Of a stretch of 64,000 bases of DNA, positions 9,705 to 60,479 are shown one piece after another; the first letter of the stretch is position 1; every line of letters begins with the position of its first letter. Location of the stretch: assembly GCF_900111805.1 (NCBI RefSeq), contig NZ_FOJN01000003.1, positions 248,001-312,000 on the forward strand. Reading direction: 5' to 3'. The stretch comes from Rhodococcoides kroppenstedtii (GTDB lineage: Bacteria > Actinomycetota > Actinomycetes > Mycobacteriales > Mycobacteriaceae). Position numbers and translations under genes: made by a program. Below the pieces are notes generated by a model. The model saw only the letters and a list, made by a program, of their open reading frames with translations. It was not told the DNA's origin and ran no database searches.

Positions 9705-10555
9705 CCGACCGGGGAGCGTTCCTGGACTGGCTGGGCCCCGCCCCGGATCAGCCCACCGCACCCGCCGACCCTGGCGCCGCTGAGTCGAGTCCTGCACCCG
9801 AGGGAGACACCTCGATCGATCCGCCCCGGGCCGCCGGCCGCGTGGTGACGGTCGCCGGGGCACACGGCGGCTCCGGAACCACCGTGGTCGCGGTCCTGCT
9901 GTCGATGGTCGCCGGAACCACCGGGACCGCCGCGGTGCTCGACGGCACCGTGATCGGCGGGGACCTGCTGCACCGGGCGCCCGCGGACATCGACGTCGGC
10001 TGCACCTGGCACCACTGGGTCACCGACCCGCACCGCACACCGCCGCCCGGCCGGTGGGTGGCCCTGGGCCGTGACCGCGCCGCTGCCCCTCACGGGTTGC
10101 CGCTGGCGGCCGCGGCGGGGGAGCTGGCCGCCGCGGGACGCACCGTTGTCGTCGACGCCGGAGCGTGCGTCGGGTCTGCGTGGTTCGACGAGCTCGCCGC
10201 GGTGACCGACCACCTGCTCCTCACCGTCGACGACCGACCCGGCGCCGCGAACGCCTCACGGCCGGTGCTCTCGATGGTGCGGTCCCGACTGGGGTCCTCG
10301 CAGATGGGGCGGTCGGTGCAGATCGTCGTGACCTCCCAACGTCCCGGCGTCGACCACGTCACCGGACCCCTCACCGACGCCCTGGCCGGCCGCGTCGCAG
10401 GCGTGCACCACGTGCCCTACGACCCCGAACTCGCCGCCGGTGTCGAGATCGACACCGCCCTGCTGTCGGCGGCGTCGATCGATCTCGCCCACGCCGTCCT
10501 GGCCCACACCGACCCGATCACCGAGACCCCTGCGCACCGGAAGGCCCGACCATGA
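9701..10555 (+). CDS. MinD/ParA-like P-loop ATPase of the transfer operon
   Basis: 284 residues from GTG 9701, which overlaps the preceding stop. After a proline-rich 45-residue N-terminus it has VVTVAGAHGGSGTTVVAVLL, a deviant Walker A of the MinD/TadZ/FleN type (GGSGTT, lacking the usual signature lysine before the second glycine), a later VVVDAGACVGSAWF in the Walker B position and LLLTVDDRPGAA. MinD-like proteins of this kind are common in actinobacterial secretion and conjugation loci, where they may position the apparatus. It is distinct from the partition ParA at 182-766. Confidence 0.65.
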   Translation: MTDRGAFLDWLGPAPDQPTAPADPGAAESSPAPEGDTSIDPPRAAGRVVTVAGAHGGSGTTVVAVLLSMVAGTTGTAAVLDGTVIGGDLLHRAPADIDVGCTWHHWVTDPHRTPPPGRWVALGRDRAAAPHGLPLAAAAGELAAAGRTVVVDAGACVGSAWFDELAAVTDHLLLTVDDRPGAANASRPVLSMVRSRLGSSQMGRSVQIVVTSQRPGVDHVTGPLTDALAGRVAGVHHVPYDPELAAGVEIDTALLSAASIDLAHAVLAHTDPITETPAHRKARP

Positions 10556-12162
10556 CCGACTCCACCACCCGCCCGCGACCGGTCACGGTGTCGCTGCTTG
10601 CCGCCCCGCTGGCGGCGGCGGTGCTGCTGACCTCGGCCGGGACCGCCGCCGCCGCACCCACCACGTCGTCGGCGGGCAGCGGGTGCGACGTGCTGCACGT
10701 GTTCGGGCTGCAAGGCACCGGTCAGTCCGGCGACGCCGCCGCCACCGACGTCGATTCCGGGTTCCTCGGCTCCGCGATCACCATTCCGCTGTCGCTGGCC
10801 GCCGACAACGTCGGACGGACATTGATCCCGTACGCGGCGAGTTTCGGCGGTAAGCCCGGCGACAGCACCGACCTGCCCTACGCGCAGTCCATCGCCGACG
10901 GCCTCGACGCCGGGGCGAAGTTCCTCGCCGACTACGCCGCACGGTGCCCCGGCGCGAAGATCGCCCTGACCGGCTACTCCCAGGGCGCTCAGGTCGCGTC
11001 CGAGCTGGCCCGTCGAATCGGCGCCGGCGACGGGCCCGTTCCCGCCGCCGACGTCGCGGCGGTCTCACTGTTCTCCGACCCCACCCGCCCCGCGAACTCC
11101 CCGGCGTTCCCCGGCTCCCCGACCGGCGAGCGACCCACCCCGCCGCCCGGTGTCGCGGCCGACCTCGATGGACTCGATGTCACCGCCCCGCCCGCCGACG
11201 GCTCCGGCGTGGCCCCGGTCATCAGTGCCGACAGCGCAGCGACTGCCGGTGCTGCTGCTCGGTCGACGTTCGGGTCGCTCAGTGGCCGCGTCGCGCAGTT
11301 CTGCACCGCCGGTGACCTCGCGTGCTCACTGCCCGCCAAGTCCACCATCGCCCGCGTCGTGACGAACATTTCCGGGCAGCTGCACCTGCAGGAGCAGGAC
11401 CCGCAGCGCACCCTGATCGACCTCGCCGGCGCGGTCGGTGGAACCACACTGCGCACGGCCGCCGACGTCGTCAACGACGACGTGAACTTCACCGGAGGAC
11501 AGTTCCGCGTCTCCTCGGGCGGCGACACCGTCCTCGGCCGTCTCGCGGAGAACTCTCAGGCGACCTCCGACACTCCGGAAGCCGACGCGAAGATCGTGCG
11601 CGCCGTCGTCAAAGCCGGGGTCATGGGGTTCGGCGCCGCGGTGACCGTGGCGAAAAAGGTCCTCACCCCGGCGACCATCACCGAACTCGCCACCGTCGGA
11701 CTGGCCAACCCCCCGGCGGCCCTGGCGGTCCTCGGCACCAAGCTCACCGCCGCCGTCGCCTCCCTCGTCCCCCCGGCGACCATCTCCTCGGTCCAGCGGC
11801 GCATCTATTCCGAGGTCACCAAAGGGGTCCAGGAGAACGAGGGACTGCTGACTCTCGCCACCGACGTCCGCTACTGGGACACCGTGCGCCTGCACGGCAC
11901 CTACGACCAGGTGCCGGTCACCGCCGACGGACAAACCCCCGCGAAGTTCACCGTCGAGTGGTTCACCCGCCTCGCCGCCGCTCTCACCGACGACCGCACC
12001 AGCTCGTCCCCGACCGGATCGACCACATCGACCGCGCCGACGGTGCCCTCCGGTGCGGCCCGATCGCAGCTCACGCCGTCCACCACGGCCGGAACCGTCA
12101 CCACCCGCACGTCGCCCCCGGTCACCTCGTCCACACCGGCGGACCCTGTCGCCGGTTCCTGA
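10552..12162 (+). CDS. Cutinase-family esterase with long C-terminal extension
   Basis: A 536-residue exported protein starting at ATG 10552 (ATGA overlap with the previous gene). A signal peptide ends near AAAAPTTS. The cutinase/Culp domain follows, with the nucleophile serine in GYSQGAQVAS (Ser143), early cysteine SGCDVLHVFG and PADVAAVSLFSDPTRP. Beyond about residue 270 is a C-terminal part of about 200 residues with hydrophobic helices, then a Ser/Thr/Pro tail. Relatives hydrolyse lipid esters in the mycolate envelope. Placement inside a transfer operon suggests local remodelling of the outer lipid layer during DNA transfer; this is inference. Confidence 0.8.
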   Translation: MTDSTTRPRPVTVSLLAAPLAAAVLLTSAGTAAAAPTTSSAGSGCDVLHVFGLQGTGQSGDAAATDVDSGFLGSAITIPLSLAADNVGRTLIPYAASFGGKPGDSTDLPYAQSIADGLDAGAKFLADYAARCPGAKIALTGYSQGAQVASELARRIGAGDGPVPAADVAAVSLFSDPTRPANSPAFPGSPTGERPTPPPGVAADLDGLDVTAPPADGSGVAPVISADSAATAGAAARSTFGSLSGRVAQFCTAGDLACSLPAKSTIARVVTNISGQLHLQEQDPQRTLIDLAGAVGGTTLRTAADVVNDDVNFTGGQFRVSSGGDTVLGRLAENSQATSDTPEADAKIVRAVVKAGVMGFGAAVTVAKKVLTPATITELATVGLANPPAALAVLGTKLTAAVASLVPPATISSVQRRIYSEVTKGVQENEGLLTLATDVRYWDTVRLHGTYDQVPVTADGQTPAKFTVEWFTRLAAALTDDRTSSSPTGSTTSTAPTVPSGAARSQLTPSTTAGTVTTRTSPPVTSSTPADPVAGS

Positions 12163-12210
12163 CCACCCTCACCGTCACTGCCCGGCCACCGCAGAAAGGA
12201 GGACGCACCC

Positions 12211-13899
12211 GTGTCGTCGACCCCCAGCACTCGCACCGCCGCCACCACCGCCGCCGCGGCCGTACTCGCCGTCCTCCTCGTGGTGGTGGCGGTCGCGGTG
12301 GTGCTGACCCGCCCGGACGATCAGTGCGCACTCCCCAACGGTGCGGGCGGCGGACCGGTACCCGCTGGTACACACGTCAAGCCGACCGACCCGGCTGCGA
12401 CCACGCTGACATCCGGGTTCGGTCCACGGTGGGGCACCGAGCACCGCGGCGTCGACTACGCCGGACCGATCGGCACGCCGATCTACGCCTTCACCGACGG
12501 AACCGTGCGAGAAGCCGGACCGGCCAGCGGTTTCGGCAACTGGATCATCGTCGACCACATCATCGACGGAAAGCCCTACTCGACCGTCTACGGCCACATG
12601 GAGAGCGACGGAGTACTCGTCACGACCGGCCAGCAGGTCACTGCCGGCCAGGAAATCGGCCGGATCGGCAACGCCGGTCAGTCCACCGGTGCGCACCTGC
12701 ACTTCGAGCTCTGGGACGGCGGACGACTACCGGACGGAGCGGGCACGGCAATCGACCCCGCGCCGTGGACCTCGGCCGCCGTCACGCCGGGCGCAGCCCC
12801 GGCTCCGACCGCACCGAACCCGAACTCCGCCCCCGGCGCCGGTGCGTCCGGGGCGACTACCGGCGGTCTGAACGACAAGCAGCTCGCGATCGCCAAGCAG
12901 ACCGTCGCCATCGGCGAGGCGATGAACGTCCCCGAACAAGGCATCGTCGTCGCCCTGGCAACGGTGTCGCGGGAGTCGACGTTCCAGATGTACGCCAGCT
13001 CCAACGTCCCGGACTCGCTGAACTACCCGCACGACGCCGTCGGCTCGGATCACCTGTCGGTCAACCAGTTCCAGCAACAGGTCACCATCTGGGGCGACAC
13101 CGCCACCCTGATGAACCCCGTCACCGCCAACCGCCTGTTCTACGAGCACCTCCTGGCCGTCCCCGGGTGGAAGTCGATGCCCACCGCCGCCGCCGCGCAG
13201 GCCGTGCAGAACTCGGGTCTACCCGGCGCCTACGCCGAACACGAACCCCTCGCCCGCGCCCTGTACGCGCAGTTCGAAGGCGCAGGCCGCGACCTGTCAC
13301 CGGCCGAGAAGGCCGCACTGGCCGGAGCCGGGTCCTCCGCCTCGGCCACCGCCGTCGTCGACGGCGGATCGGCACCGGACTGCGCGCAGGCCGGGTCGGC
13401 GTCCGGCGGCCCACAGTTCCGCCCCGGCGGACCGTTCGGGGCCAACGTCATCGCCGCCGCGATGCGCTGGCTCGGCACCCCCTACGCCTGGGGCGGCGGA
13501 GACCAGAACGGACCCACGGGCGGCATCAGTGACGGCGGCGGCGCCGCGGACGCACACGGCGACACCGGAAAAGTCGGCTTCGACTGCTCCGGACTGACCC
13601 TGTACGCGGTCTTCCAAGCCTCCGGCGGCGCGATCAGCCTGCCGCACTTCACCGGCGACACCTCCAACCCCGGCCAGCTCTACGACCCACGGGGACAGGA
13701 CATTCCGTTCGACCAGAAACAACCCGGCGACCTGATCTTCTTCGGGTCCGCAGGCAACACCCACCACGTCGGCATCTTCTACGGCGCCCGGAACGGCACC
13801 GAAATGCTGCTCAACGCACCGCAATCGGGCGACGTGGTCTCCATTGCACCGCTCTCGGGATGGGCGGGCGAACAGATGTACGTCAGGAGATTCGGATGA
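12211..13899 (+). CDS. Modular cell-wall hydrolase: M23 peptidase, muramidase-like, NlpC/P60
   Basis: A 562-residue protein from GTG 12211, preceded by AAAGGAGG. One N-terminal membrane segment (about 10-32) anchors three modules. An M23 metallopeptidase (about 60-185) carries HRGVDYAG and HLHFELW zinc motifs. A middle region (about 215-355; ALATVSRESTFQMYASSN) resembles lysozyme/transglycosylase-like domains including the catalytic-type glutamate. A C-terminal NlpC/P60 domain (about 410-562) has GFDCSGLT with the catalytic cysteine and THHVGIFYG with the histidine. It is the VirB1-type component that opens peptidoglycan for the transfer channel. Three hydrolytic modules in one chain is unusual but known in Gram-positive T4SS. 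Confidence 0.85.
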   Translation: MSSTPSTRTAATTAAAAVLAVLLVVVAVAVVLTRPDDQCALPNGAGGGPVPAGTHVKPTDPAATTLTSGFGPRWGTEHRGVDYAGPIGTPIYAFTDGTVREAGPASGFGNWIIVDHIIDGKPYSTVYGHMESDGVLVTTGQQVTAGQEIGRIGNAGQSTGAHLHFELWDGGRLPDGAGTAIDPAPWTSAAVTPGAAPAPTAPNPNSAPGAGASGATTGGLNDKQLAIAKQTVAIGEAMNVPEQGIVVALATVSRESTFQMYASSNVPDSLNYPHDAVGSDHLSVNQFQQQVTIWGDTATLMNPVTANRLFYEHLLAVPGWKSMPTAAAAQAVQNSGLPGAYAEHEPLARALYAQFEGAGRDLSPAEKAALAGAGSSASATAVVDGGSAPDCAQAGSASGGPQFRPGGPFGANVIAAAMRWLGTPYAWGGGDQNGPTGGISDGGGAADAHGDTGKVGFDCSGLTLYAVFQASGGAISLPHFTGDTSNPGQLYDPRGQDIPFDQKQPGDLIFFGSAGNTHHVGIFYGARNGTEMLLNAPQSGDVVSIAPLSGWAGEQMYVRRFG

Positions 13900-14522
13900 C
13901 CCCCACCACCGCCACCCGCACCTTCGGCCGCGGCCGAAGCCGCGGTGTCGCCGCGGCGCTGACCGCGATCACGCTCGCTGCCGCGGCCTCGGGATGTGGA
14001 ACAACCACCGACACCCCACCCGCCCCCGACGGCGGGTCCATGCCGACCTCCACCTCGGCGGCGCCCCCGACGGTGTGCACCGACCTCATCGACCAGTTCA
14101 CCCGCACCGACCTCTGCGACGTCGACGCGGTCCTGTCCGACGCCGCCGCCGCCCTCTACTCCTACCGACCCGCCGAGCAAACCCAGAAGGGCGTGAACAT
14201 CGACTCCGCCGCCACGCTGCTCAACCCTGCCTGGGTCCGCGACCTCGGGGTGTCCTACTCCGCTCTCGCCCCGGTCACCGGCGCCGACTGGGACCGCTGG
14301 GCCGCCGCCGGCACCGTCGTCGACGCCGACGCCGCCGTAACCGCGGACGATCACCCGGCCGACACCGACACCCTCGTCCGCCGCGTCGTCGCCGTGCACC
14401 AGAGCCTGATCGCCCCGGACAGCACCGTCATCGGCGAGTTGCCCCCGATCGCGCTGTACATGACCGCCACCCGCGCCAACCGTCTCGCCGGCTGGGCTGT
14501 CTCCGGGGTGACCGTCCGATGA
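13896..14522 (+). CDS. Transfer-operon lipoprotein
   Basis: 208 residues from ATG 13896, overlapping the hydrolase stop (ATGA). The N-terminus has a basic region, hydrophobic segment and lipobox LAAAASGC, so it should be lipidated and held on the outer face of the membrane. The remainder is a soluble domain beginning TVCTDLIDQFTRTDLCDVDAV with two further cysteines that could pair. No enzymatic motif is visible. It probably belongs to the transfer channel or mating-pair assembly. The stop overlaps the next gene. Confidence 0.6.
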   Translation: MTPTTATRTFGRGRSRGVAAALTAITLAAAASGCGTTTDTPPAPDGGSMPTSTSAAPPTVCTDLIDQFTRTDLCDVDAVLSDAAAALYSYRPAEQTQKGVNIDSAATLLNPAWVRDLGVSYSALAPVTGADWDRWAAAGTVVDADAAVTADDHPADTDTLVRRVVAVHQSLIAPDSTVIGELPPIALYMTATRANRLAGWAVSGVTVR

Positions 14523-18958: not shown

Positions 18959-19062
18959 CCGGCGCCCATCCACACCGAACTTCCCACCCGCGAACCGGAG
19001 GACCTGCCATGACCTCACTGCCGAGAACCACCCACCGCACCGTGTCGGCGGCCGGGCGATGA
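18955..19062 (+). CDS. 35-codon bridging ORF between VirB6-like and VirB4-N genes
   Basis: ATG 18955 overlaps the stop of the VirB6-like gene and its stop TGA (19060-19062) overlaps ATG 19059 of the next gene, so the ORF links the two by ATGA on both sides. An internal in-frame ATG at 19009 has its own CCGGAGG site. The peptide is Arg/Thr/Pro-rich and not recognised. Its likely role is to carry ribosomes across the gap by translational coupling; a functional peptide cannot be excluded. Confidence 0.5.
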   Translation: MTGAHPHRTSHPRTGGPAMTSLPRTTHRTVSAAGR

Positions 19063-20555
19063 GCGCCCCGCAAGCCGAGCGGACCGTCCGCACCTACGCC
19101 GGGTACATCGACGAGCGCCGCACCTACGCCTTCGGACTCACTCCCGTGGCGTTCGGCGCTCTGGCGGCGATCGTCGTGCTCACTCTGGCGGTGATGTTCC
19201 TGGCCGGATCGCCTTTCGTGGCGCTGGTACTCGGCGGTGTCGGTGTGCTGGCGTGGCTTCCGCTGGCGATCCGTGGGCCGCAGGGCAAGTCGGCGTACGA
19301 GCTGGCGTTGCTCGGTCGGCAATGGGGTGCCCAGCGCAGCGCCGGCCGCCACATCTATCGGGCCGGGTCGCTGTCGAATCAAGCCGGGGGCCGCACCCGG
19401 TTGCCGGGCATCGGCGCCGAAACCGAGATGTGGTGGGCCCTCGACGTCAACGGTCACCGCTTCGGGATGATGCGGATGCCCAGCACGCACCAGTACACGG
19501 TGCTGCTGCGCTGCCGGATCGGCGGCGCCGCGGGCAACGACCAGGACGTCATCGACGGTTTCGTCGGCTCGTGGGCGAACTTCCAGACCATGCTCGGGCA
19601 GGTCACCAACATCGCCGCCGTCGCGGTGACCGTGGAAACCCTGCCCGACACCGGCGAGCGGGCACGCGCCAACGTCGAGTCCATCACCGACGCCCTCGCC
19701 CCGGCCGATGCTCGGGCGATCCTGCTCGAACGCCTCTCGGCCGCATCGGAATCGGGTTTTCGGGTGCATGCGCGTGTGGCGATCACCTTCGACGCCGCGA
19801 CCCCCGCCCAGCGCAAGGACCCGATGGCGGCCGCCGAGATGATCGGCGCGCAGCTGCCGGTGCTCTACACCCAGCTCGGGCACACCAACGTTCTCGCGAC
19901 ACCGATGACCGACAGCGAGTACGCCGCCGTCGTGCGCCGCGCGTACGACCCTGCCGCCGAGCCGGACATCGAACGTGCCCTCGCGCTCGGGGAGCACGTC
20001 TGCGACTGGGCCGACGCCGGCCCGGTCACCGCCGAGGAGGACAAGACCACCTACGTCCACGACTCCGGCGTCTCGCGGGTGTGGACGATGACCCGCCCGC
20101 CGTCCGGGTTCCCCACCGAGCGGGTGTTGGTGGGACTGCTCTCGCCGAACTCGCAGATCCCCCGCAAGCGCATCACGCTGCTGCTGCGCCCGTACGCGCC
20201 GGGCGATGCCGCCAAAACGGTCGAGGGCGACTTCAAATCCGCTGTGGGCGCGGTCAACACCGCCCGCGGTATCGGATCCGCCGCCGCCGACATCGCATTG
20301 CAGAACGCCGGGGCAGCGCGGGTCGCCGAAGCCCGCGGACACGGGGTGGTGTCGGTGTCGATGATCGTCACCGCCACCGGCGAGAGCGAGGACCAACTCG
20401 ACACGCTCGACCCGGAGATGGCGTCCCTGATCTCCGGTGCACGCATCACCGCCCGCCCGGCATACCGGTACCAAGCCGCCGCCTGGCTCGCCGGCCTCGG
20501 CATCGGGGTGCTCCTGCCCGATCACGCCACCATCCCGAAGTCGCTGCGCGGCTGA
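19059..20555 (+). CDS. SCO6880/PrgI-type protein, N-terminal half of a split VirB4
   Basis: 498 residues from ATG 19059. Two N-terminal membrane segments (FGALAAIVVLTLAVMFLAG and FVALVLGGVGVLAWLPLAI) are followed by the basic linker and a soluble domain that matches the N-terminal domain of VirB4 proteins as found in the actinobacterial SCO6880 family: MWWALDVNGHRFGMMRMP, TVLLRCRIGG, FPTERVLVGLLSPNSQIP and a conserved C-terminal Ser/Gly region. There is no Walker motif. It combines PrgI/VirB3-like helices with the VirB4 N-domain; the ATPase half is the next gene. Confidence 0.8.
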   Translation: MSAPQAERTVRTYAGYIDERRTYAFGLTPVAFGALAAIVVLTLAVMFLAGSPFVALVLGGVGVLAWLPLAIRGPQGKSAYELALLGRQWGAQRSAGRHIYRAGSLSNQAGGRTRLPGIGAETEMWWALDVNGHRFGMMRMPSTHQYTVLLRCRIGGAAGNDQDVIDGFVGSWANFQTMLGQVTNIAAVAVTVETLPDTGERARANVESITDALAPADARAILLERLSAASESGFRVHARVAITFDAATPAQRKDPMAAAEMIGAQLPVLYTQLGHTNVLATPMTDSEYAAVVRRAYDPAAEPDIERALALGEHVCDWADAGPVTAEEDKTTYVHDSGVSRVWTMTRPPSGFPTERVLVGLLSPNSQIPRKRITLLLRPYAPGDAAKTVEGDFKSAVGAVNTARGIGSAAADIALQNAGAARVAEARGHGVVSVSMIVTATGESEDQLDTLDPEMASLISGARITARPAYRYQAAAWLAGLGIGVLLPDHATIPKSLRG

Positions 20556-20587: not shown

Positions 20588-22315
20588 ATGATGCTCCGCT
20601 CACCGCTCGGACCGGTGTCGCTGCGCCGACGCCTGTCGGACCTGACCGGCTCCGGCCAGCTCCGCGCCCCCAAGCACTCCCGCTCGGTCACCGACCCGAT
20701 GAAGTCGGCCGCCGACCGCCGCCGCGCCGCCGCGGCCGCAGCCCGCAAAGCCGAACGGGAAGAAGCCAGACGTGCTGCCCGCGAACGTGATCCGTCCCGT
20801 AAGGACCGGAAGGAGTTCCCGTGGCGCTCGGCGCCGCGGCTCGAGGCGCGCGGGTTCGCCGGTCGCGGCGGTGGCCGCATGGGGGTGGTGGACCGGCCGG
20901 CCAGTTTCCGCGCCACCACCGATCAGGCGTGCGGAATGTGGCCGTTCTACGTCGGCACCGGACAGCCGCAGTCCGGGACTCCTCTCGGCATCGACCCCGC
21001 CACCCGACAAGCGGTCTGCTACGACCCGGTCTCGGCGACCTACCGGCGACCCATCCAGCAGAACACCCCCTCGGCGTTCATCCTGGGCCTGCCCTCACTG
21101 GGGAAGTCGACCGTCGCCCGCATCATCACCAGCGGCGCGATCGCCCAAGGGCAGATCCCGATCATTCCCGCCGACCTCAAGCCCGATCAGGCCAAACTCG
21201 TCGAATCCCTCGGCGGCCTGGTCATCCGCCTCGGGCACGGCGAGGGCTTCGTCAACCCCCTCGACGTCGGCGCGCTCGGCACCATCGTCCCGCTTCTGGG
21301 CGAGTTCCCCGACGCCCAGCGCAAGGTGATCGCTCAGGTCCGCCAGCGCCGCCGCCGCATGGTGCTCGGACTGTGCGAGCTCGAACGCGGCGGGCCGCTC
21401 ACCCAGGCCGAGACGAACGTCGTGGCGGCCGCGCTGCGGGTGCTCGAGGACGATCCGCGGTTCACCCCGGCGGCGCCGCCGCTGTTGTCCGACCTGCACG
21501 CCCTCATCGAGCACGGCTCGCCGGAGCTGCACCGCAAGACCGTCAGCACCGACAATCCCGAGAAGTACGCCGCCAAGGTCGAAGGGCTGCTCGAGACCCT
21601 CATCGGCCTGCTCGACGGCGAACTCGGGGAGGTGTTCTCCCGGCAGACCACCGTCCGCCTCGACCTCGCCGGCGACCGGCCCCCGGTCGCGGTGTGCGTC
21701 GACGTCTCCTCCATCGGCACCGAGGACCCCACCCTGGAAGCGGCGATCATGCTCGCGTGCTGGTCGGATGCGTTCGGCGCCGTCGAAGCCGCCCACGTCC
21801 TCGCCGACGTCGGACTGCGCCCGCAACGCACGTTCCTCGTCGTCCTCGACGAGCTGTGGCGGGTACTGGCCGGCGGGTCGCAGATGGTGCTGCGCGTCGA
21901 CCAGCTCACCCGCCTGACCCGCACCCTCGGTACCGCGCTGCTGATGATCACCCACACCGTCGCGGACCTGGAAACCCTCGCCAACGCCGTCGACATCAAC
22001 CGCGCCAAAGGGTTCATCGAACGCGCCGGAGCCGTCATCGTCGGCGGCCTGCCCGCACAGGAGATGGACAAGCTCGACGGCATCATCCCCTTCACCCGCC
22101 AGGACCGAGACCTGGTGTCGTCGTGGTCGTCGAAAGCGGGAATCGACGACGCCGGCAACGAACTACCGCCGCCCGGACGGGGGAAGTTCCTGCTGCGCAT
22201 CGGCACCGCCCGTAGTCCCGGTGTCGAGTTCGAGACCGTCATCACCGACACCGAACGTCGGCTGAACTACCACGACACCAACGCCCGGTTCTCCCACATC
22301 GGAGCCCGGGCGTGA
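20588..22315 (+). CDS. VirB4-like T4SS ATPase (C-terminal half)
   Basis: 575 residues from ATG 20588 (GAGGAGG upstream). A basic, coiled N-terminal part (about 40-80, rich in Arg/Ala/Glu) precedes an ATPase domain with Walker A GLPSLGKST (about 167-175), Walker B FLVVLDELWR (about 417-426) and downstream arginine-containing motifs (LMITHTVADL). This is the HerA/FtsK-type motor of VirB4 that powers assembly of the transfer channel. It functions with the SCO6880-type protein encoded immediately before it. The end overlaps the next start by GTGA. Confidence 0.85.
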   Translation: MMLRSPLGPVSLRRRLSDLTGSGQLRAPKHSRSVTDPMKSAADRRRAAAAAARKAEREEARRAARERDPSRKDRKEFPWRSAPRLEARGFAGRGGGRMGVVDRPASFRATTDQACGMWPFYVGTGQPQSGTPLGIDPATRQAVCYDPVSATYRRPIQQNTPSAFILGLPSLGKSTVARIITSGAIAQGQIPIIPADLKPDQAKLVESLGGLVIRLGHGEGFVNPLDVGALGTIVPLLGEFPDAQRKVIAQVRQRRRRMVLGLCELERGGPLTQAETNVVAAALRVLEDDPRFTPAAPPLLSDLHALIEHGSPELHRKTVSTDNPEKYAAKVEGLLETLIGLLDGELGEVFSRQTTVRLDLAGDRPPVAVCVDVSSIGTEDPTLEAAIMLACWSDAFGAVEAAHVLADVGLRPQRTFLVVLDELWRVLAGGSQMVLRVDQLTRLTRTLGTALLMITHTVADLETLANAVDINRAKGFIERAGAVIVGGLPAQEMDKLDGIIPFTRQDRDLVSSWSSKAGIDDAGNELPPPGRGKFLLRIGTARSPGVEFETVITDTERRLNYHDTNARFSHIGARA

Positions 22316-22650
22316 GGGGCCGACCGTTCCCGGAGGAAGTGCGCACCGCCGCCGCCCGCATGGTCGCCGACCGCGTCCCGCAGTCCCGCTCAACCTGGGC
22401 CGCCGTCGAAGCCGTCGCCGACCACCTCGGTCTGCATCCGAACACCGTCCGCTCCTGGTACCGCCGCCACCAAGGCGTCACCGACGCCCGGCCGCTCATG
22501 CCCCACGAACAGAACGCCGAAATCACCCGCCTCCGAGCGGAACTCGCCGCCGCACAACAACTGCTTTCGGCCCTCGTCGACACCGCCCACCCCATCCCTC
22601 GCTCCGCCGCCGCGGTGGGCGAGGCCACCACCACCAGGAGCACACCATGA
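22312..22650 (+). CDS. IS3 OrfA-type helix-turn-helix protein embedded in the transfer operon
   Basis: 112 residues from GTG 22312. The N-terminal 65 residues match the HTH of IS3-family OrfA transposases: FPEEVRTAAARMV, AVADHLGLHPNTVRSWYR. A helical, leucine-containing stretch (EITRLRAELAAAQQLLSAL) could dimerise. It overlaps VirB4 at its start (GTGA) and VirD4 at its end (ATGA), and there is no OrfB or terminal inverted repeat nearby. It therefore looks like a domesticated transposase HTH acting as a DNA-binding accessory of conjugation, not an active insertion sequence. Confidence 0.65.
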   Translation: MRGRPFPEEVRTAAARMVADRVPQSRSTWAAVEAVADHLGLHPNTVRSWYRRHQGVTDARPLMPHEQNAEITRLRAELAAAQQLLSALVDTAHPIPRSAAAVGEATTTRSTP

Positions 22651-24638
22651 GCACACGAGGCGCGAAGAACCCGGACGCCGGGATCGATCCGATGCTGGCC
22701 ATCGCCGGCACCGCGATCACCGTCGCGGCCCTCGCCTACGGCGGCGCCGAAGCGGCCCTGCACCTCGGCGGACCGCTGTCGGGTCTCGAGCAGGACGTGC
22801 CGGGATCACCGTTCGCCCTCGCGAAGGGCCTGGCGAACGGGACCATCGTGTGGCCGACCGGGGCGACGATCATCGCCGCCGCCTTCGGCCTGCTCGGGTT
22901 GGTCGTCATCGTCGCCGGCACCGTGTGGGCGATGAAACGGCGGCGACGGGTCACCCGCGTCGACGACGCCGGGCGCTACCTCGCCCGCCCGCGGGAGATG
23001 GCGCGGCTGACGGAGACGGCGCTGCGCCGGGAGATCGAACGCCTCGGCACACCGTTGGTGGCAGGTCAGCTGCCGGGCGCTCCCCTCGGCCGCGTGGTGT
23101 TGGGGCCGAACCGATTCGGAATCACCCTCTATGCCGGGCCGGAGGACTGCGCAGTCCACGTCTGGGGACCGCGGATGGGCAAGACGAGCTGCGTGGTCAT
23201 CCCGCAGGTTCTCGCCGCACGGGGAGCTGTGCTGACCACCTCCAACAAGCGTGACGTCGTCGACGAAACACGCGCCTACCGAGCCGAGAAGGGTTCGGTG
23301 TGGGTGTTCGACCCGCAGGGCGTCGCCCAAGAAGTGCCCCGGTGGTTCTTCGACCCACTGTCCTGGGTGCGCGCGGCGAAGCCCTCCACGACGAAGGGTG
23401 TGCACGACGAACTCGTGGCGACCGAACGTGAAGCGGAGCTGACGCGCCTGCTCGGCCGCGACACCGTCGACCGGATGACCCAATCGGCTCAGGAGATGAA
23501 GGCCGCGACGCTCTCCGGGATCTTCGCCGACTCGATCAACGGCGACAGAGCACGTCGCGATGCGTTCTTCGACCCGACGGGCCAACGCCTGGTCACCGGG
23601 TTCATCCTCGCCGCGGCCATGGAACGGCTCCCCATGCCGGTCATCTACTCCTGGGCCACCAACGAAAACGATCAGACGCCGGTGGCACTGCTGCGCAAGC
23701 ACAAGTTCGACGTGTGGGCGGACACGCTGCTCGCCCAGTACAACGCGCCCGACAAGCAACGCGGCGGCGTCTTCGCGACCGCCGTGAACCTGCTCGCCTG
23801 CTTGGCGTTCGCCGAGGCGCACCCGTGGATCGCCCGCATGGGTCCGCACGACACCCGTCCGGAGTTGGAGCCTGCGGAGTTCGCCGCCGAGGACTCTCCG
23901 ACGCTCTACAGCCTGTCGATGGAAGATTCCGCGGGCGAATGCGGGGCGCTGGTGACGGTACTGACGATCGCGATCACCGACGCCCTGATCGACAAGGCCA
24001 CCGCAACACCGGGCACGCCCTCACTGCCCGGTGGGCGTCTGCGGGTGCCGGCCACCTACGCCCTCGACGAAGCCGCGAACGTCGTGCGCTGGACGCAGCT
24101 ACCGGGTCTGTACTCGCACTTCGGTTCTCGCGGAATCAACGTCACGACGATCCTGCAATCGTTCACCCAGGGAGAGGAATGCTGGGGCAAGGGCGGCATG
24201 ACGAAACTGTGGGGCGCAGCAACGCTGCGTGTCTACGGCGGCGGCGGGACGACCGACGACAGCCACTTCATCGAGAACACCTCCCGCGCGCTCGGCGATC
24301 ACTGGGAGATGAGTCGCTCGGTCTCGACGACGCAATCGGGCCGGTCGACCTCGCAGCAACGCCAGAAGGTTCGCACCTTGGAGGCCGGCGACCTCGAATC
24401 GATGCCCGCCGGGCGGTCAGTGCTGCGGTCGGCGAAATGCCCCCCGGTCGTACTCGAGACGATGCCCTGGTACACCGGCCCGTTCGCGGCGGAGGTCGCG
24501 GCGGCGAAGATCCGCGCCGGTCAGGACCCGACGGTCGCCCGCAACGACGACGACCCCGAGCCCGATGACACGTCGTCGCTGCTGCCGCGGCCGCCCAAGG
24601 CGGCGGTGGAATACCCGGCCTTGGAGACGGCGTCGTGA
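22647..24638 (+). CDS. Type IV coupling protein (VirD4/TraG family)
   Basis: 663 residues from ATG 22647. Two membrane segments lie near 15-40 and 70-96. The ATPase domain has Walker A GPRMGKTS (about 174-181) and Walker B YALDEAANV (about 470-478), with the coupling-protein signature WVFDPQG and the TTILQSFTQGE region in the position of the conserved Gln/Arg motif. It docks the relaxase-DNA complex to the transfer channel. A relaxase gene is not visible in this window, so the substrate partner must be encoded outside it or supplied in trans. It is coupled by overlap to both neighbours. Confidence 0.9.
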   Translation: MSTRGAKNPDAGIDPMLAIAGTAITVAALAYGGAEAALHLGGPLSGLEQDVPGSPFALAKGLANGTIVWPTGATIIAAAFGLLGLVVIVAGTVWAMKRRRRVTRVDDAGRYLARPREMARLTETALRREIERLGTPLVAGQLPGAPLGRVVLGPNRFGITLYAGPEDCAVHVWGPRMGKTSCVVIPQVLAARGAVLTTSNKRDVVDETRAYRAEKGSVWVFDPQGVAQEVPRWFFDPLSWVRAAKPSTTKGVHDELVATEREAELTRLLGRDTVDRMTQSAQEMKAATLSGIFADSINGDRARRDAFFDPTGQRLVTGFILAAAMERLPMPVIYSWATNENDQTPVALLRKHKFDVWADTLLAQYNAPDKQRGGVFATAVNLLACLAFAEAHPWIARMGPHDTRPELEPAEFAAEDSPTLYSLSMEDSAGECGALVTVLTIAITDALIDKATATPGTPSLPGGRLRVPATYALDEAANVVRWTQLPGLYSHFGSRGINVTTILQSFTQGEECWGKGGMTKLWGAATLRVYGGGGTTDDSHFIENTSRALGDHWEMSRSVSTTQSGRSTSQQRQKVRTLEAGDLESMPAGRSVLRSAKCPPVVLETMPWYTGPFAAEVAAAKIRAGQDPTVARNDDDPEPDDTSSLLPRPPKAAVEYPALETAS

Positions 24639-25273
24639 GCGACGAGTTCGACCTCACCGACCTCGACACCGCGTCCGCACGGCCCGGGGCACTGGACGCG
24701 GCGCCGCTGAGCGGACAGCTCGATGAGCTGGTCGAGCGTGCTGTCGGTGCGCGTCTGGCCGCCGAAGCGGAGGCGATCGCGCAAGCCCAGTTCGAAGAAA
24801 TGCTCACCCCCGAGTTGCACACCGCGCTCGCCGACGCCGTCCGGCGGGCGCTGACCGCGGTGACGACACCGGAGGCAGAACCGGGGGAGCGGGGGAGCGT
24901 TGGGGAGGTGGGCCCGTACTACCCCAACGCCTACCGGTTCTTCACCGAGTTCCTCGCCCCGGCGTACCGACGCAAGACCGTCGACTACCCGGCGATGCGG
25001 TGGTGCCCGAGCTGGTTCTGCCACCCCGAAGCGCGGGCACGAGTCGACGCGCTGTGGCGGGCGTGGGAGTACCTGCGGCTCGACCCGGCCACCGGGATGA
25101 GCGTGTGGTGGAAAGACCACGCCGACCATCACATGGCCAAATTGCTCTCCCCGGACGGCACTTTCAAGGACTGCACCCCCCACCACCGGCAGGTGCACCC
25201 GCTCCCGAGCATCGACATCCCTACCGAGCTGCTGACGCTCGACGACGCCCACCCCGCTGCCACACGGCTCTGA
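24635..25273 (+). CDS. DUF4913 family protein
   Basis: 212 residues from GTG 24635, overlapping the VirD4 stop. After a helical N-terminal region (about 25-80) comes the DUF4913 signature: WCPSWFCHPEARARVDALWRA, YLRLDPATGMSVWWKDHADHHM, LSPDGTFKDC. The conserved Trp, Cys and His residues suggest a small metal-binding or DNA-associated domain. DUF4913 proteins are regularly found beside VirD4 genes on actinobacterial plasmids and integrative elements; their role is not known. An accessory of the coupling protein or relaxosome is a reasonable guess. Confidence 0.85.
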   Translation: MSDEFDLTDLDTASARPGALDAAPLSGQLDELVERAVGARLAAEAEAIAQAQFEEMLTPELHTALADAVRRALTAVTTPEAEPGERGSVGEVGPYYPNAYRFFTEFLAPAYRRKTVDYPAMRWCPSWFCHPEARARVDALWRAWEYLRLDPATGMSVWWKDHADHHMAKLLSPDGTFKDCTPHHRQVHPLPSIDIPTELLTLDDAHPAATRL

Positions 25274-55651: not shown

Positions 55652-56638
55652 TCACGAATGGGCCGGTGTCGGCGCCGAGTCGATGAGCCCGGCAGCCCAG
55701 TCGCGTGTCCATTCGACCGCCGTCGTACCGGCGTCGTCCACGACGTACGACGCGTAGCTCCCGTGGACGGGGTTGCCGGCCGCCCCCGCGAGGGCACCGA
55801 GCGACGACGGGATGTTGCGCAGCGACATCGCCTGCGGCGGCGCGGCGCAGATGAGGTCGCCGGGCGCGCAGATGCTGTAGGTCCGATCGGCCAGGGCCCC
55901 GAAGCCACCGCGCCGCTCTCCCGTCATCGTGATGCCGGGGACGTCGAGACCGCCGAGGGCGACCTCCGCACCGACTCCGTCGACGGGTGGACCGACCTGC
56001 TGGGCACTGACACCGTCCCGTCGCCCGTCGGCGATGAGCGTGACGCCGAGGACGCGGTCGGCCGGCACCGGGCCGTCGCCGGCCCCGATCGCCGCGGCGA
56101 GGTCGCCGACGATCACCGCACCCTGCGAGAACCCGGCGAGCACGTACGACGTCAGCGGGCAGTCCGAGTAGCGCTGCGCCAGAACGTCGTTGGCCCGGGC
56201 TGCACCCTCCGAACGACTGACGTTGTACGACGCCTGCCCGTCCGGCGGGAAGGCGATGGGATTGGAGAACTGGGCGACGTACGGGACGGTGTAGACCTCG
56301 GCCCGGTTCGGCGGGAAGCGGTTCTGCAGTTCGGACGTCACCTTCAGCATCAACGACGCCGGGTTGGCAGTGGGTGCGTAGGGGTCGTCGCCCGCGTTGG
56401 ATTCCCAGGTCCCGGGGACCGACAGGACCATCACGTCGGGACACGACGCCGGCTGCGAGGTGGGCGGTGCGGCGTCGGGCTCTCCCGGACGACCACGGTC
56501 CGGCGTGGTCAGCCGGCCGGCGAGCAGGTACCAGAGCAGCAGGACGACCAGCAGCACCACCAGGACGATCGCAACCACGACGGCCAGCATCCGGAGCGGT
56601 GATCGGCGGCGGGCGGCGCCCCGCCCTCGCGACGACAC
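55652..56638 (-). CDS. Rv3802c-type cutinase-like lipase/thioesterase
   Basis: 328 residues from ATG 56638. One N-terminal membrane anchor (MLAVVVAIVLVVLLVVLLLW) leads to an exported alpha/beta-hydrolase with VMVLSVPGTWESN, nucleophile serine in AGFSQGAVIVG, aspartate/cysteine region YSICAPGDLICAAP and histidine in NPVHGSYASYV. Position beside mycolyltransferases and fadD32 matches Rv3802c (Culp6), an essential envelope lipase in mycobacteria. The DUF732 gene lies directly upstream. Confidence 0.9.
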   Translation of the reverse strand: MSSRGRGAARRRSPLRMLAVVVAIVLVVLLVVLLLWYLLAGRLTTPDRGRPGEPDAAPPTSQPASCPDVMVLSVPGTWESNAGDDPYAPTANPASLMLKVTSELQNRFPPNRAEVYTVPYVAQFSNPIAFPPDGQASYNVSRSEGAARANDVLAQRYSDCPLTSYVLAGFSQGAVIVGDLAAAIGAGDGPVPADRVLGVTLIADGRRDGVSAQQVGPPVDGVGAEVALGGLDVPGITMTGERRGGFGALADRTYSICAPGDLICAAPPQAMSLRNIPSSLGALAGAAGNPVHGSYASYVVDDAGTTAVEWTRDWAAGLIDSAPTPAHS

Positions 56639-56644
56639 GTCCGT

Positions 56645-57184
56645 CTACCCGCAGTAGGTCGACCGCGCCGCGTCGATGTACTTCTGCGCGGTGGCGGCGG
56701 CGTCCTCGGCACTGATCTCGGTGCCGCTGGCCGACGCCTCGGCGCCGACGTTGGCGGTGACGAAGGTCGAGATCTGATCCGCGGCGACGCCCTCGCTCTG
56801 CGCCGCGCAGATGTAGTTGGCGGTGCCGATCGCGATGTCGCCGTTGCCCGCGACGGTCACGCCGTCCGCACGCAGGCGGTCGAGGAACGCGTCGGAGCGT
56901 GGATCGCGCGGAACCTCGGTGGGGCCCGGGTAACCGCTGGGCACGGCCTCCTGCTCCTCGGCGGCCGCGCCGGACGAGGCGGCACCGGAGGTGGTGGTCG
57001 CGGCGCTGCTCGAGCTGGACGGGCCGGTCGAGGGCGCCTCGCTGGTCGCCTCGGCGGTCGTCGACGCGGACGGCGTGGGGGTACTGCTGGCCGACGAGTC
57101 GTCGCCGCCACAGGCGGTCAGCAGTGCCCCGGCGGCCGTCGCCAGCAGGACGGGCGCGAGGAAGGAAACGACTCTCGATGTCAC
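56645..57184 (-). CDS. DUF732 lipoprotein
   Basis: 179 residues from GTG 57184 (GAGGA upstream). Signal sequence with lipobox GALLTACGG, a Ser/Thr/Ala-rich spacer of about 75 residues, and a C-terminal DUF732 domain (DAFLDRLRADGVTVAGNGDI, ANYICAAQSEGVAADQIS) with two cysteines (C in YICAA and STYCG) likely paired. Function unknown; widely found in mycolate-forming bacteria. Its stop is seven bases before the cutinase start, so they are probably co-transcribed. Confidence 0.8.
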   Translation of the reverse strand: MTSRVVSFLAPVLLATAAGALLTACGGDDSSASSTPTPSASTTAEATSEAPSTGPSSSSSAATTTSGAASSGAAAEEQEAVPSGYPGPTEVPRDPRSDAFLDRLRADGVTVAGNGDIAIGTANYICAAQSEGVAADQISTFVTANVGAEASASGTEISAEDAAATAQKYIDAARSTYCG

Positions 57185-57320
57185 GTGCGGGTCCTCTTCG
57201 GGTCGAGACGGGTGCCGAGCGCAGCACACGCTACCGACCGGGGCTGAGAGAACTCTGTGCTCTCTCTCCGACAACCACTGTCGACTACCGACGGTCGTCG
57301 TCGCCCCGGTCGGTCGCGCG

Positions 57321-59186
57321 TCAGGGAACGATCTGGACGTTGCCGTCGCGCACGGTGACGAAGCCGTTCTGGAAGTTCTGCTGAACGCCCCCGGGAATCG
57401 GGAACTCGTCACTGGTCACGTACCCCAGCCGCCCGTTCTCGTAGCCCACGCTCTTCCACGCGTCGAAGATCGGTCCGTTGCGGATCACCCAGGCACCGGT
57501 GGCCGGCGACCAGTAGATGTTGCCGCCCTCGAACTGGGTGAAGCGGCCGTTGTCGCGCACGGCGATCTCGTTGGTGCGCGCGAAGCCGAGAGGCCCGTTC
57601 TCCCACCCGGTCTGGCCGTACTTCTCCATGATCTTCCCGAGCACCGCATGCGTGCCGGTGTCCGGCGAGAAGTACATGGCGCCGATCTCGAAGCCCTGCA
57701 CCGCACCCGGGCGGTTGGGGGTCGCGACCTCGTCGCGCAGCGGGTACCCGAGCGGTCCGCGCTCGTAGCCCTGACGCGCCCATTCGTCGAGGATCGCGCC
57801 GCGGACGGCGTGCGCGCCGGTCTGCGGCGTCCAGTAGACCATTCCGTTGCGGAAGGAGTTGTAGCGTCCGCGGCCGTCCGGCACGCCCAGTTCGCCGGAG
57901 GTCGGCATGCCGAGCACGCCGGCCGGTCCGCCGAGTCCGGAGTACGCGCCGCCGATGGCACCGGCCACCACGTGCGTCCCGCTGTCGGAGGTGAAGATGC
58001 GCCCGACGCGGAAGTCCTGCGCGCGCCCGCCGGGGACGTCGTACTCCGCCGTCAGGCAGTCACCGAGCCACCCGTTGGCGCTGGCCGCGCCCCCGATCGC
58101 GCCGCCGACCGAGCAGGCGGGCTTGTCCGCCTCGACGCCCAGCGCGGTGGCGATCTGCGGCCAGGCCTGCTTGACCTCGAACTGCCAGTAGCTCCACGCG
58201 TGCACGCCGGACGGCCGATAGTTGATGGTGGCCGGGATGCCCAGCTTCGTCAGCTTGGTGGCGAAGGTCTGGGAGGTCAGTCGCGAGAGGATCTCGAGAC
58301 CCATGCCGGCGTAGTTGGTGCTGATGCCGGGGATGTCGGACGGCTGGTCGTACGGTCCGGCGGCACCGCTGCCGCTCGAGACGTAGAGGCTGGTGCCCTT
58401 CAACTTCTCGGCGAGGACGTACGGATCGTGCTGGGCCCACAGGTCACCCGACGGCACTCCCCACATCGACCCGACGTCGAAGCCGCCAGCGTCCTGCATC
58501 GCGTAGCCGATCGCCTGCGGCATACCGAGCGTCGAGGTCGAGAGGATGCCGGAGAACGAGCCCGCGAACTTGAAGAAGCCGGGGTTGCGCGCGGCCAGCG
58601 TCATGGCCGCGGTACCGCCCATCGACAGTCCGGCGACGGCGCGGACGTCCGTCGACCGCCAGTCGCGCTCGAGGATCGGGGGGAGCTCCTTGGTCAGGAA
58701 GGTCTCCCACTTGTAGTTGCGTCCGTTGTTCTGCTCGACCCAGTCGGAGTAGAAGCTCGACTGGCCGCCGACCGGCAGGACCACGTTGACGTTCTTGTCC
58801 GCGAACCACGTCTCGGCGTCGGTCTCGGCGGTCCAGCCGTTCTCGACGTCGGTCGCGCGCATGCCGTCGAGCAGCCACAGCGTGGGGAACGACGCCCCCG
58901 GGCTGCGGTTCCAGTCCCGCGCGAGCAGGATCTGGACCTGGATCGGCACACCCATGGACGGCGAATTCACCCACACCGCGACGCGGCGATCGGTGAGCCA
59001 GTCGACGCGAGCGACGGACGCGCCGGCGTCGTTCTGCGCCCGCACGGGTGCGGCCTGCACCGGCGCGGCGGCTGCGGGCACCGCGAGGGCGGTCGTGGTC
59101 GCGCCGCCGACGAGCGGCAGCACCAGCGCCAGAGCGACCGCGGACATTCGCAGTCGGCGTCGGCCGGTCGTCCTCGGTACACGCAT
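57321..59186 (-). CDS. Mycolyltransferase (antigen 85 family) with LGFP repeats
   Basis: 621 residues from ATG 59186. A signal peptide (about 1-42) is followed by the esterase-fold mycolyltransferase domain with the nucleophile in VAGLSMGGTAAM and HAWSYWQFEVKQAWP supplying the histidine. From about residue 355 to the end come LGFP-type repeats (GVLGMPTSGELGVPDGRG, GPLGYPLRDEVATP, GPLGFARTNEIAVRDNGR, GRLGYVTSDEFPIPGG) which are thought to bind the cell wall. It transfers mycolic acids to trehalose and arabinogalactan. The long form corresponds to the wall-anchored type known in Corynebacterium and Rhodococcus. Confidence 0.92.
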   Translation of the reverse strand: MRVPRTTGRRRLRMSAVALALVLPLVGGATTTALAVPAAAAPVQAAPVRAQNDAGASVARVDWLTDRRVAVWVNSPSMGVPIQVQILLARDWNRSPGASFPTLWLLDGMRATDVENGWTAETDAETWFADKNVNVVLPVGGQSSFYSDWVEQNNGRNYKWETFLTKELPPILERDWRSTDVRAVAGLSMGGTAAMTLAARNPGFFKFAGSFSGILSTSTLGMPQAIGYAMQDAGGFDVGSMWGVPSGDLWAQHDPYVLAEKLKGTSLYVSSGSGAAGPYDQPSDIPGISTNYAGMGLEILSRLTSQTFATKLTKLGIPATINYRPSGVHAWSYWQFEVKQAWPQIATALGVEADKPACSVGGAIGGAASANGWLGDCLTAEYDVPGGRAQDFRVGRIFTSDSGTHVVAGAIGGAYSGLGGPAGVLGMPTSGELGVPDGRGRYNSFRNGMVYWTPQTGAHAVRGAILDEWARQGYERGPLGYPLRDEVATPNRPGAVQGFEIGAMYFSPDTGTHAVLGKIMEKYGQTGWENGPLGFARTNEIAVRDNGRFTQFEGGNIYWSPATGAWVIRNGPIFDAWKSVGYENGRLGYVTSDEFPIPGGVQQNFQNGFVTVRDGNVQIVP

Positions 59187-59370
59187 GGGGCTCTCTCGCT
59201 TCCTCGGGTGGCAACGCGGACGGCGGGCTCGGATCCCGGGGGACCCGGGAACAACAGCGCCGTCGGCGTGGTCGGTAGTTCCGATTTCTACACGTCGCGC
59301 GGCCTCTTTCCTGAGAGGCTCGCTGTGACGGATGGTGCGAATGTTACTCGGTGACGGGGTCCGGACAGAC

Positions 59371-59404
59371 GAACGACCCCGACACCGCGGTGTCGGGGTC
59401 GTTC
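59371..59404 (-). terminator. 34-bp perfect palindrome between the two mycolyltransferase genes
   Basis: GAACGACCCCGACACCG and its exact complement abut with no loop, 26 bases past the stop of the upstream mycolyltransferase gene. A very stable hairpin would form in the transcript (with a few central bases unpaired). It most likely terminates or trims the mRNA. Confidence 0.75.
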
Positions 59405-59429
59405 GTCGGAGTTCCGTTCGGGACTCGGG

Positions 59430-60479
59430 TCAGCCGATGTTGGCCCGCAGATCGGGCATCATCTGCACGATCTGGTCGAACCAGTAGCCCCACCGGTGCG
59501 TGCCCTGACCCGGGAAGCTGTAGGTCACGTTGTTCGCGCCGATGGACGCCATCCGCACCTGGAATGCGCGGCTGTTGGCCAGTGCCAGAGCCTCGAGGCC
59601 CATGCCGTTGGCGGTGTTGTAGTAGTCGAGCAGCGAGGCCGGGCGGTCGTAGACGCCGGGCAGACCGCTGGCGGCCGAGACCCACACGCGGGTGCCGTTG
59701 TCACGCAGACGCGGGGCGAAGACGAACGGGTCGTTGCGCAGCCACGCCGGATCCCAGGGCGGTCCCCACATGGAGTCGACGTTGTAACGGCCGGCGTCGA
59801 GCATGGCCACGCGGATCGCCTCACGCATGCCCGGAGCCGAGATGTTCAGGTAGCCGGACAGCGATCCGGCGTAGCTGAACTGGTTCGGGTGGTAGGCCGC
59901 CAGCGTCAGTGCGGCGGAGCCGCCCATCGACAGGCCGACGACGCCGACGTTCGACCGCGCGAAGCCCAGATCGGGGCCCGCGAGGCGGTTGGGGAGGTTC
60001 TGCGTCAGGAACGTCTCCCACTTGTACGTGGTGCGCTGCCCGTTGAAGTTCGAGGGGGCGTACCAGTCCGAGTAGAAGCTGGACTCGCCGCCGACCGGCT
60101 GGACCACGTTGATGTTGTTGTCCGAGAGGAACGAGCCCGCGTTGGTCTCGTGCTCCCAGCCGCTGATGTCGTTGGTCGCCCGCAGACCGTCGAGCAGGTA
60201 GACGACCTTGTTGGTGTTGCCGTCGGCCGCACGCCAGACGCGGCTCTTGATCGGGCCCATGGACGAGTCGGTCCACACGTCGAAGCCGGCGCGCACCTCG
60301 GCGTTCGCGACCGGACCGGTGCCGACCACGGCGAGGCCGAGCGGCACGGCCGCGGCCATCACCAGGGAGACGACGGCACGACGCATACGGCGGCCGACTC
60401 GGGGGGTGCGAAGGCGAGTTGCCTTTCGCGGCTGAGCGCTGGCATCACCAGCGGCTTCGGTCACGAACCCGTCACGCAT
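59430..60479 (-). CDS. Mycolyltransferase (antigen 85 family), short form
   Basis: 349 residues. A signal peptide (about 30-60, AVVSLVMAAAVPLGLAVVG then VANAEVRAG) precedes the catalytic domain. The nucleophile is in VGLSMGGSAALTLAAY; the histidine lies in FPGQGTHRWGYWF. QPVGGESSFYSDWY and WETFLTQNLPNRL are typical of antigen 85. No LGFP repeats. It is the paralogue of the 57321 gene and acts in mycolate transfer on the cell surface. The start may be later (MRRAVVSLVMAAA). Confidence 0.92.
   Translation of the reverse strand: MRDGFVTEAAGDASAQPRKATRLRTPRVGRRMRRAVVSLVMAAAVPLGLAVVGTGPVANAEVRAGFDVWTDSSMGPIKSRVWRAADGNTNKVVYLLDGLRATNDISGWEHETNAGSFLSDNNINVVQPVGGESSFYSDWYAPSNFNGQRTTYKWETFLTQNLPNRLAGPDLGFARSNVGVVGLSMGGSAALTLAAYHPNQFSYAGSLSGYLNISAPGMREAIRVAMLDAGRYNVDSMWGPPWDPAWLRNDPFVFAPRLRDNGTRVWVSAASGLPGVYDRPASLLDYYNTANGMGLEALALANSRAFQVRMASIGANNVTYSFPGQGTHRWGYWFDQIVQMMPDLRANIG

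Follow-up and report, generated by a model that had tools for sequence, protein, structure and literature searches.

How a conjugation channel passes through the mycolate layer bears on the spread of resistance and virulence plasmids in Rhodococcus, Corynebacterium and Nocardia. The question is raised here by a DNA-transfer (T4SS) operon of Rhodococcoides kroppenstedtii, in which an initial annotation had noticed a cutinase-family protein with a GYSQG motif next to a wall hydrolase and had proposed that the two form a dedicated envelope-piercing pair. The operon is on the + strand of the window G000:C14:248001-312000, by which we mean the whole stretch of 64,000 nucleotides that was analysed; both coding sequences are indeed there, separated by an intergenic gap of 48 bp. 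The genes considered are the following:

9707..10555 (+), gene 5' of the cutinase, with a weak likeness to ParA/CpaE-type ATPases (TIGR03815) and an ATGA overlap with the cutinase start
10552..12162 (+), T4SS-associated cutinase, 536 aa (Cutinase family PF01083, 49.6 bits, cut-off 25.9)
12211..13899 (+), three-module wall hydrolase, 562 aa, with an N-terminal membrane anchor followed by M23, GH184 and NlpC/P60 modules
13896..14522 (+), lipoprotein-like gene (AAASGC in the translation), overlapping the hydrolase stop
19059..20555 (+), SCO6880-family T4SS protein (NF042935, 388 bits, cut-off 60)
20588..22315 (+), VirB4-like ATPase (weak CD1110/TraC VirB4 matches; the same place is kept in related loci)
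22647..24638 (+), TraG/TraD-type coupling ATPase (PF12696, 91 bits; PF02534, 48 bits)
24635..25273 (+), DUF4913 gene, a conserved operon member (PF16259, 109 bits)

With SCO6880, the VirB4-like protein and the coupling ATPase all in the operon, the system is an actinobacterial T4SS of the SCO6880 class. Judging from the overlap of its ATG with the preceding stop codon, the cutinase is translationally coupled to the upstream gene.

The cutinase is predicted to be exported by a signal peptide of about residues 1-36, ending between AAA and AP, and matches PF08237 as well as PF01083. The parts of the protein on which the argument depends were placed as follows:

10978..10980 (+), predicted catalytic Ser143 in GYSQG (aa 141-145), invariant in alignments A1 and A3
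11314..11316 (+), predicted catalytic Asp255 (C-TAGDLAC), invariant, within the conserved disulphide C251-C258
11326..11892 (+), helical insertion of ~190 residues, aa 259-447, between Asp255 and His448, placed from the spacing in homologues and the AlphaFold helices
11893..11895 (+), predicted catalytic His448 (HGTY); H448 and Y451 are invariant, H278 is not
12004..12159 (+), S/T/P-rich, low-confidence tail, aa 485-536 (pLDDT <50 for 494-536)

S143, D255, H448 and Y451 are invariant in nine plasmid homologues and in 43/43 rows of alignment A3, and both cysteine pairs (C45, C132, C251, C258) are invariant too, so that the protein has the triad and cysteines of the cutinase family. The alternative candidate for the catalytic His, H278, was rejected because this position varies among homologues. 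Since H448 is invariant and H278 variable, the catalytic His is located far downstream, and the extra sequence sits inside the cutinase fold: about 193 residues separate Asp from His, against ~12 in usual cutinases (PMC7022511), for which a short spacing is customary though not obligatory. Nearly all of 79 database homologues have an Asp-to-His spacing of 188-197 aa, the exceptions being four at 147-148 and two at ~232. The "long C-terminal extension" of the initial annotation is thus mostly this insertion of ~190 aa between Asp255 and His448, and the true extension is only the S/T/P-rich tail of about 50 residues. An AlphaFold model built on the 43-row alignment (mean pLDDT 76) predicted the core (45-260 and 455-485) confidently and the insertion helices (265-442) with moderate confidence, and placed a final core helix at 463-484 with pLDDT 95-98; phmmer put residues 457-474 onto the C-terminal helix of MSMEG_6394, without significance. 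On these sequence grounds, the protein is a variant of the cutinase family with ~190 aa inserted.

The neighbouring hydrolase agrees with its first description as a three-module M23/muramidase-like/NlpC-P60 protein, two modules being recognised by Pfam and the middle one by matches to GH184 structures:

12439..12726 (+), M23 metallopeptidase module, aa 77-172 (PF01551, 105 bits, above the Pfam cut-off), with H78-x3-D82 and H162-x-H164
12823..13254 (+), GH184-type muramidase module, aa 205-348 (phmmer, 8b2h E 4e-22 and 8b2e E 4e-19)
13474..13863 (+), NlpC/P60 module, aa 422-551 (PF00877, 56 bits, above the Pfam cut-off), with C459 and H519

Read from the translation and the alignments, the catalytic residues are kept in all three modules. 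In the middle one, E255 aligned to the catalytic Glu41 of KsGH184, which has been shown by mutation to be essential (PMC10394673). The GH184 muramidases KsGH184 and TtGH184 resemble this module, catalytic Glu included; they are, however, fungal proteins, single-domain or SH3-linked, whereas the module in the window is the middle one of three.

To evaluate whether the two enzymes follow the mycolate layer, the order was surveyed in 399 genomes, 129 of which have an SCO6880 T4SS, 19 of them within the mycolate family and 110 outside it. A linked cutinase was found in 18/19 of the mycolate T4SS-positive genomes versus 0/110 of the T4SS-positive relatives without mycolates, so that, far from being common in T4SS of bacteria lacking mycolates, the esterase shows the opposite distribution. 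The 18 include one divergent member (G398) and two genomes (G021, G318) in which one copy and the T4SS are on separate draft contigs, linkage being taken from the other copy or from presence in the genome. Pks13, the mycolate condensing enzyme, scored above its cut-off in 19/19 of the mycolate-family T4SS genomes and in 0/110 of the others. Fisher's exact test gave p = 4e-21 for the link between cutinase and mycolates, a value to be read with the mycolate hosts forming one clade and the genomes not being independent. Full-length members were confined to the mycolate family also in a class sample of 297 genomes, and 164/165 of the plasmid records with the cutinase come from mycolate genera. In 20 T4SS loci of non-mycolate hosts chosen from the order survey, no match to the cutinase HMM was found. 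The VirB4 of most of these loci belongs to the same class, with identities up to 44%, and the wall hydrolase or its modules are retained in most. The hydrolase is therefore general to this class of T4SS and the cutinase its mycolate-specific part. The proposed dedicated pair therefore holds for the cutinase, which is tied to mycolate hosts, and not for the hydrolase, which also serves in non-mycolate T4SS. By its distribution among the genomes compared, the cutinase is an addition made in the mycolate lineage to actinobacterial conjugative T4SS of the SCO6880/VirB4 class, one protein that sets the T4SS of mycolate hosts apart from those of the same class elsewhere and for which catalytic residues and an inserted lid can be predicted.

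Two records were examined as irregular hosts. One, publicly filed as "Kitasatospora arboriphila NRRL B-24581" (L100, L126) and a candidate non-mycolate exception, was discarded as it has a full-length Pks13 (2771 bits) and its insertion cutinases nest among Williamsia; the record is probably mislabelled. The match figures of a "Mycobacterium sp." MAG (L084) are essentially those of a Rhodococcus fascians locus (L083), and it was taken as contamination or mislabelling. We also observed that a protein of the Cryobacterium plasmid pA26BH1 is nearly the same as one of R. fascians pA21d2. Moreover, mycolate hosts have a second, more distant subclass of SCO6880 T4SS (VirB4 26-29%; L128, L136, L138, L140, L141), which has no cutinase and resembles the T4SS of non-mycolate hosts.

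From gene content, motifs, residue invariance, hosts, synteny and selection we infer, with a probability of about 60%, that the cutinase is an exported, lid-bearing esterase that opens the mycolate layer for the T4SS, added in the mycolate lineage. The substrate, the role of the lid, the site of action and the part of the window copy in transfer would then be as follows. The core fold would comprise residues 45-260 and 443-484, with the triad S143-D255-H448, and the insertion, placed as the acyl-binding linker of LysB proteins, would by analogy most likely be a lid or an acyl-binding domain, allowing the enzyme to attack long-chain mycolate (or phospholipid) esters. The mycolate layer may in this way be loosened at the exit of the transfer channel, be it that of the donor, that of the recipient or both, and the peptidoglycan beneath may be opened by the wall hydrolase, as in the T4SS of non-mycolate bacteria. 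It counts against this explanation that the cutinase is missing from two T4SS of the close class in Corynebacterium (G441, G504).

Corynebacterium is also the genus in which the catalytic residues are not always kept. SCO6880 is present in 26/242 Corynebacterium genomes, and 20 of the 26 have a linked cutinase, a triad-less one (G486) included. The catalytic His is lost in 11/23 Corynebacterium sequences, and 7 of the 11 have lost the Ser too, with motifs such as GVGQG, GNAQG, GEADG and similar in its place, while the triad is intact in the 12 others. All the His-less sequences (L134, L169, L171, L174-L180, L182) form one clade with support 100/99, as would be expected if the His was lost once and the Ser decayed afterwards. 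Their open reading frames are intact (545-668 aa) and stand ~6 kb from SCO6880. For the triad-less pair G267/G558 we obtained dN 0.092 and dS 1.139 over 614 codons (dN/dS ~0.08), a constraint of the same order as in a triad-intact pair (dN 0.222, dS 1.943); by this measure the triad-less Corynebacterium cutinases are under purifying selection. That catalytic loss tracks the loss of mycolates was ruled out, since only the triad-less copy of G486 is in a host without Pks13 and the remaining ones are in hosts with Pks13.

The fact that the triad was lost and the gene nevertheless kept in place under selection points to a role of the cutinase besides catalysis, for example structural or lipid-binding, and shows that ester hydrolysis is not obligatory everywhere. 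Judging from the triad-less copies, binding of mycolate lipids, or a place in the apparatus at the mycolate layer, is probably a further function of the protein. It is conceivable, though doubtful, that the cutinase-fold protein is a dedicated scaffold or lipid-docking piece of the T4SS at the mycolate layer, usually also an esterase, and a structure-only pseudoenzyme in one Corynebacterium lineage. Taken further, the structural or lipid-binding role would come first, as a channel collar, an anchor or an adhesin in the mycolate layer, with catalysis secondary or dispensable. The His-less clade with its intact frames near SCO6880, and the constraint on G267/G558, favour such a function, but the triad, invariant in every row of A3 and in the 12 other Corynebacterium sequences, requires selection for catalysis, and we regard a primarily structural role as rather unlikely. 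The natural, catalytically dead versions allow catalytic and structural roles to be told apart by mating tests.

Which esters such an enzyme would attack can be approached through its relatives. The LysB mycolylarabinogalactan esterases of phage D29 and its relatives are, like the window cutinase, built on a cutinase-type fold in which an additional domain separates the catalytic Asp from the His. In LysB-D29 this linker domain, of 83 residues between D166 and H240, is described as an acyl-binding site, and LysB proteins are reported to match both PF01083 and PF08237 (PMC7022511), as does the cutinase studied here. On the other hand, the linker is 83 aa long against ~190 for the insertion, and LysB is a phage lysis protein. 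LysB-D29 was matched in the PDB search with E 1.2e-3, the sequence likeness to phage LysB is marginal (E ~2e-3 over 65-109 aa), and most of the named best matches among predicted viral folds were lysin B proteins from phages of Gordonia, Rhodococcus and Mycobacterium; a scan of viral contigs with the cutinase found no relatives. Insertion and linker have their position in the fold in common, which does not imply homology of the two domains.

The nearest solved structures are instead of the Culp6 type, Rv3802c (5w95) and MSMEG_6394 (3aja), which are chromosomally encoded and have the same core and disulphide cysteines as the window cutinase but no insertion; against the Culp6 equivalog model NF050160 the cutinase scored 64.5 bits, the cut-off being 570. 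Rv3802c (Culp6) acts both as a phospholipase A and as a thioesterase (PMC10865251). That the closest characterised relative is a phospholipase/thioesterase, and not a shown mycolate hydrolase, counts against the explanation preferred here and would agree with an enzyme that remodels membrane phospholipids or acyl carriers at the mating site, rather than mycolate esters. We consider this unlikely, because Culp6 lacks the ~190-aa insertion and a phospholipid substrate would not explain the absence of the cutinase from the 110 non-mycolate T4SS genomes.

The surroundings of the cutinase were compared in the 79 database loci. SCO6880 or VirB4 is near the cutinase in 44/79, and SCO6880 stands 4.3-8.6 kb 3' of it in 44 loci; another operon protein is near it in 17 further loci, mostly short contigs. 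In 13/79, chiefly from Nocardia, there is no operon protein within ~8 kb or more, and a Nocardia subclade (L111-L127) has insertion-bearing cutinases without T4SS genes of the same class within ~9.5 kb, which counts against the preferred reading. Some of these Nocardia cutinases have a shorter insertion, of ~148 aa.

A hydrolase could be detected in 23 of the database loci, <2 kb from the cutinase in 5 and ~8-9 kb downstream, beyond VirB4, in 18, so that the adjacency is a local arrangement and not a general one; the window shares it with plasmids of Rhodococcus sp. NBC_00294 and with pRErm46 of Rhodococcus (Prescottella) equi. In the latter (pRERM170c/160c) the order is the same, with the cutinase (~51-53% identical to that of the window), then the murein endopeptidase (~57% identical to the hydrolase), then the same T4SS genes; pRErm46 is a plasmid, whereas the window copy is on a chromosomal contig. 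The authors of pRErm46 already proposed an envelope-opening role, citing a result on pFiD188, and the basic idea is to that extent already in print. What is new here is the lid within the fold, the almost exclusive association with the mycolate layer and the inactive copies kept by selection; in the literature searched, we found no earlier description of the inserted domain, of a survey against non-mycolate T4SS or of the pseudoenzyme clade.

The result cited is that a cutinase promotes the conjugation of pFiD188 (Francis et al. 2012, as cited in PMC6794481). In the cutinase of pFiD188 (Rhodococcus fascians D188), the Ser, the Asp, the His and four Cys are kept, together with a long Asp-His insertion, and genes of a DD-metalloendopeptidase and an ATPase are nearby. 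It is, however, very divergent from that of the window (23% identity, with an unsure position in the tree), and the T4SS genes differ, with no SCO6880/VirB4 match. The gene behind the published result is presumably the pFiD188 cutinase CDS compared here. That the cutinase is an unrelated secreted lipase, co-inherited with the operon on plasmids of the mycolate lineage and without a role in transfer, is very improbable: the mycolate hosts are one clade, so that the host association could be descent alone, and the insertion-bearing Nocardia clade is outside T4SS loci, but linkage in 18 of the 19 genomes, a distance to SCO6880 that is kept in 44 loci though other operon genes move, the translational coupling and the pFiD188 result, as cited in PMC6794481, all speak against it.

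Some further observations concern the DNA around the operon. The distance between Pks13 and Culp6 is ~4 kb in the related genomes G334 and G160 but ~115 kb here, and the intervening DNA is plasmid-like (window 1-26000 together with G000:C14:184060-248000); the T4SS element has the look of a conjugative plasmid that integrated, or else the assembly is misjoined. A stretch of 12.8 kb (L185:7098-19901, corresponding to G000:C14 ~229.9-242.7 kb) is 97.7% identical to the Rhodococcus fascians D188 plasmid NZ_CP015237 and, judging from this identity, is a recent transfer. Finally, a second, Culp6-like and chromosomal cutinase is encoded at 55652-56638 (-), beside antigen 85-like esterases (window 55652-60479), one of which has LGFP repeats.
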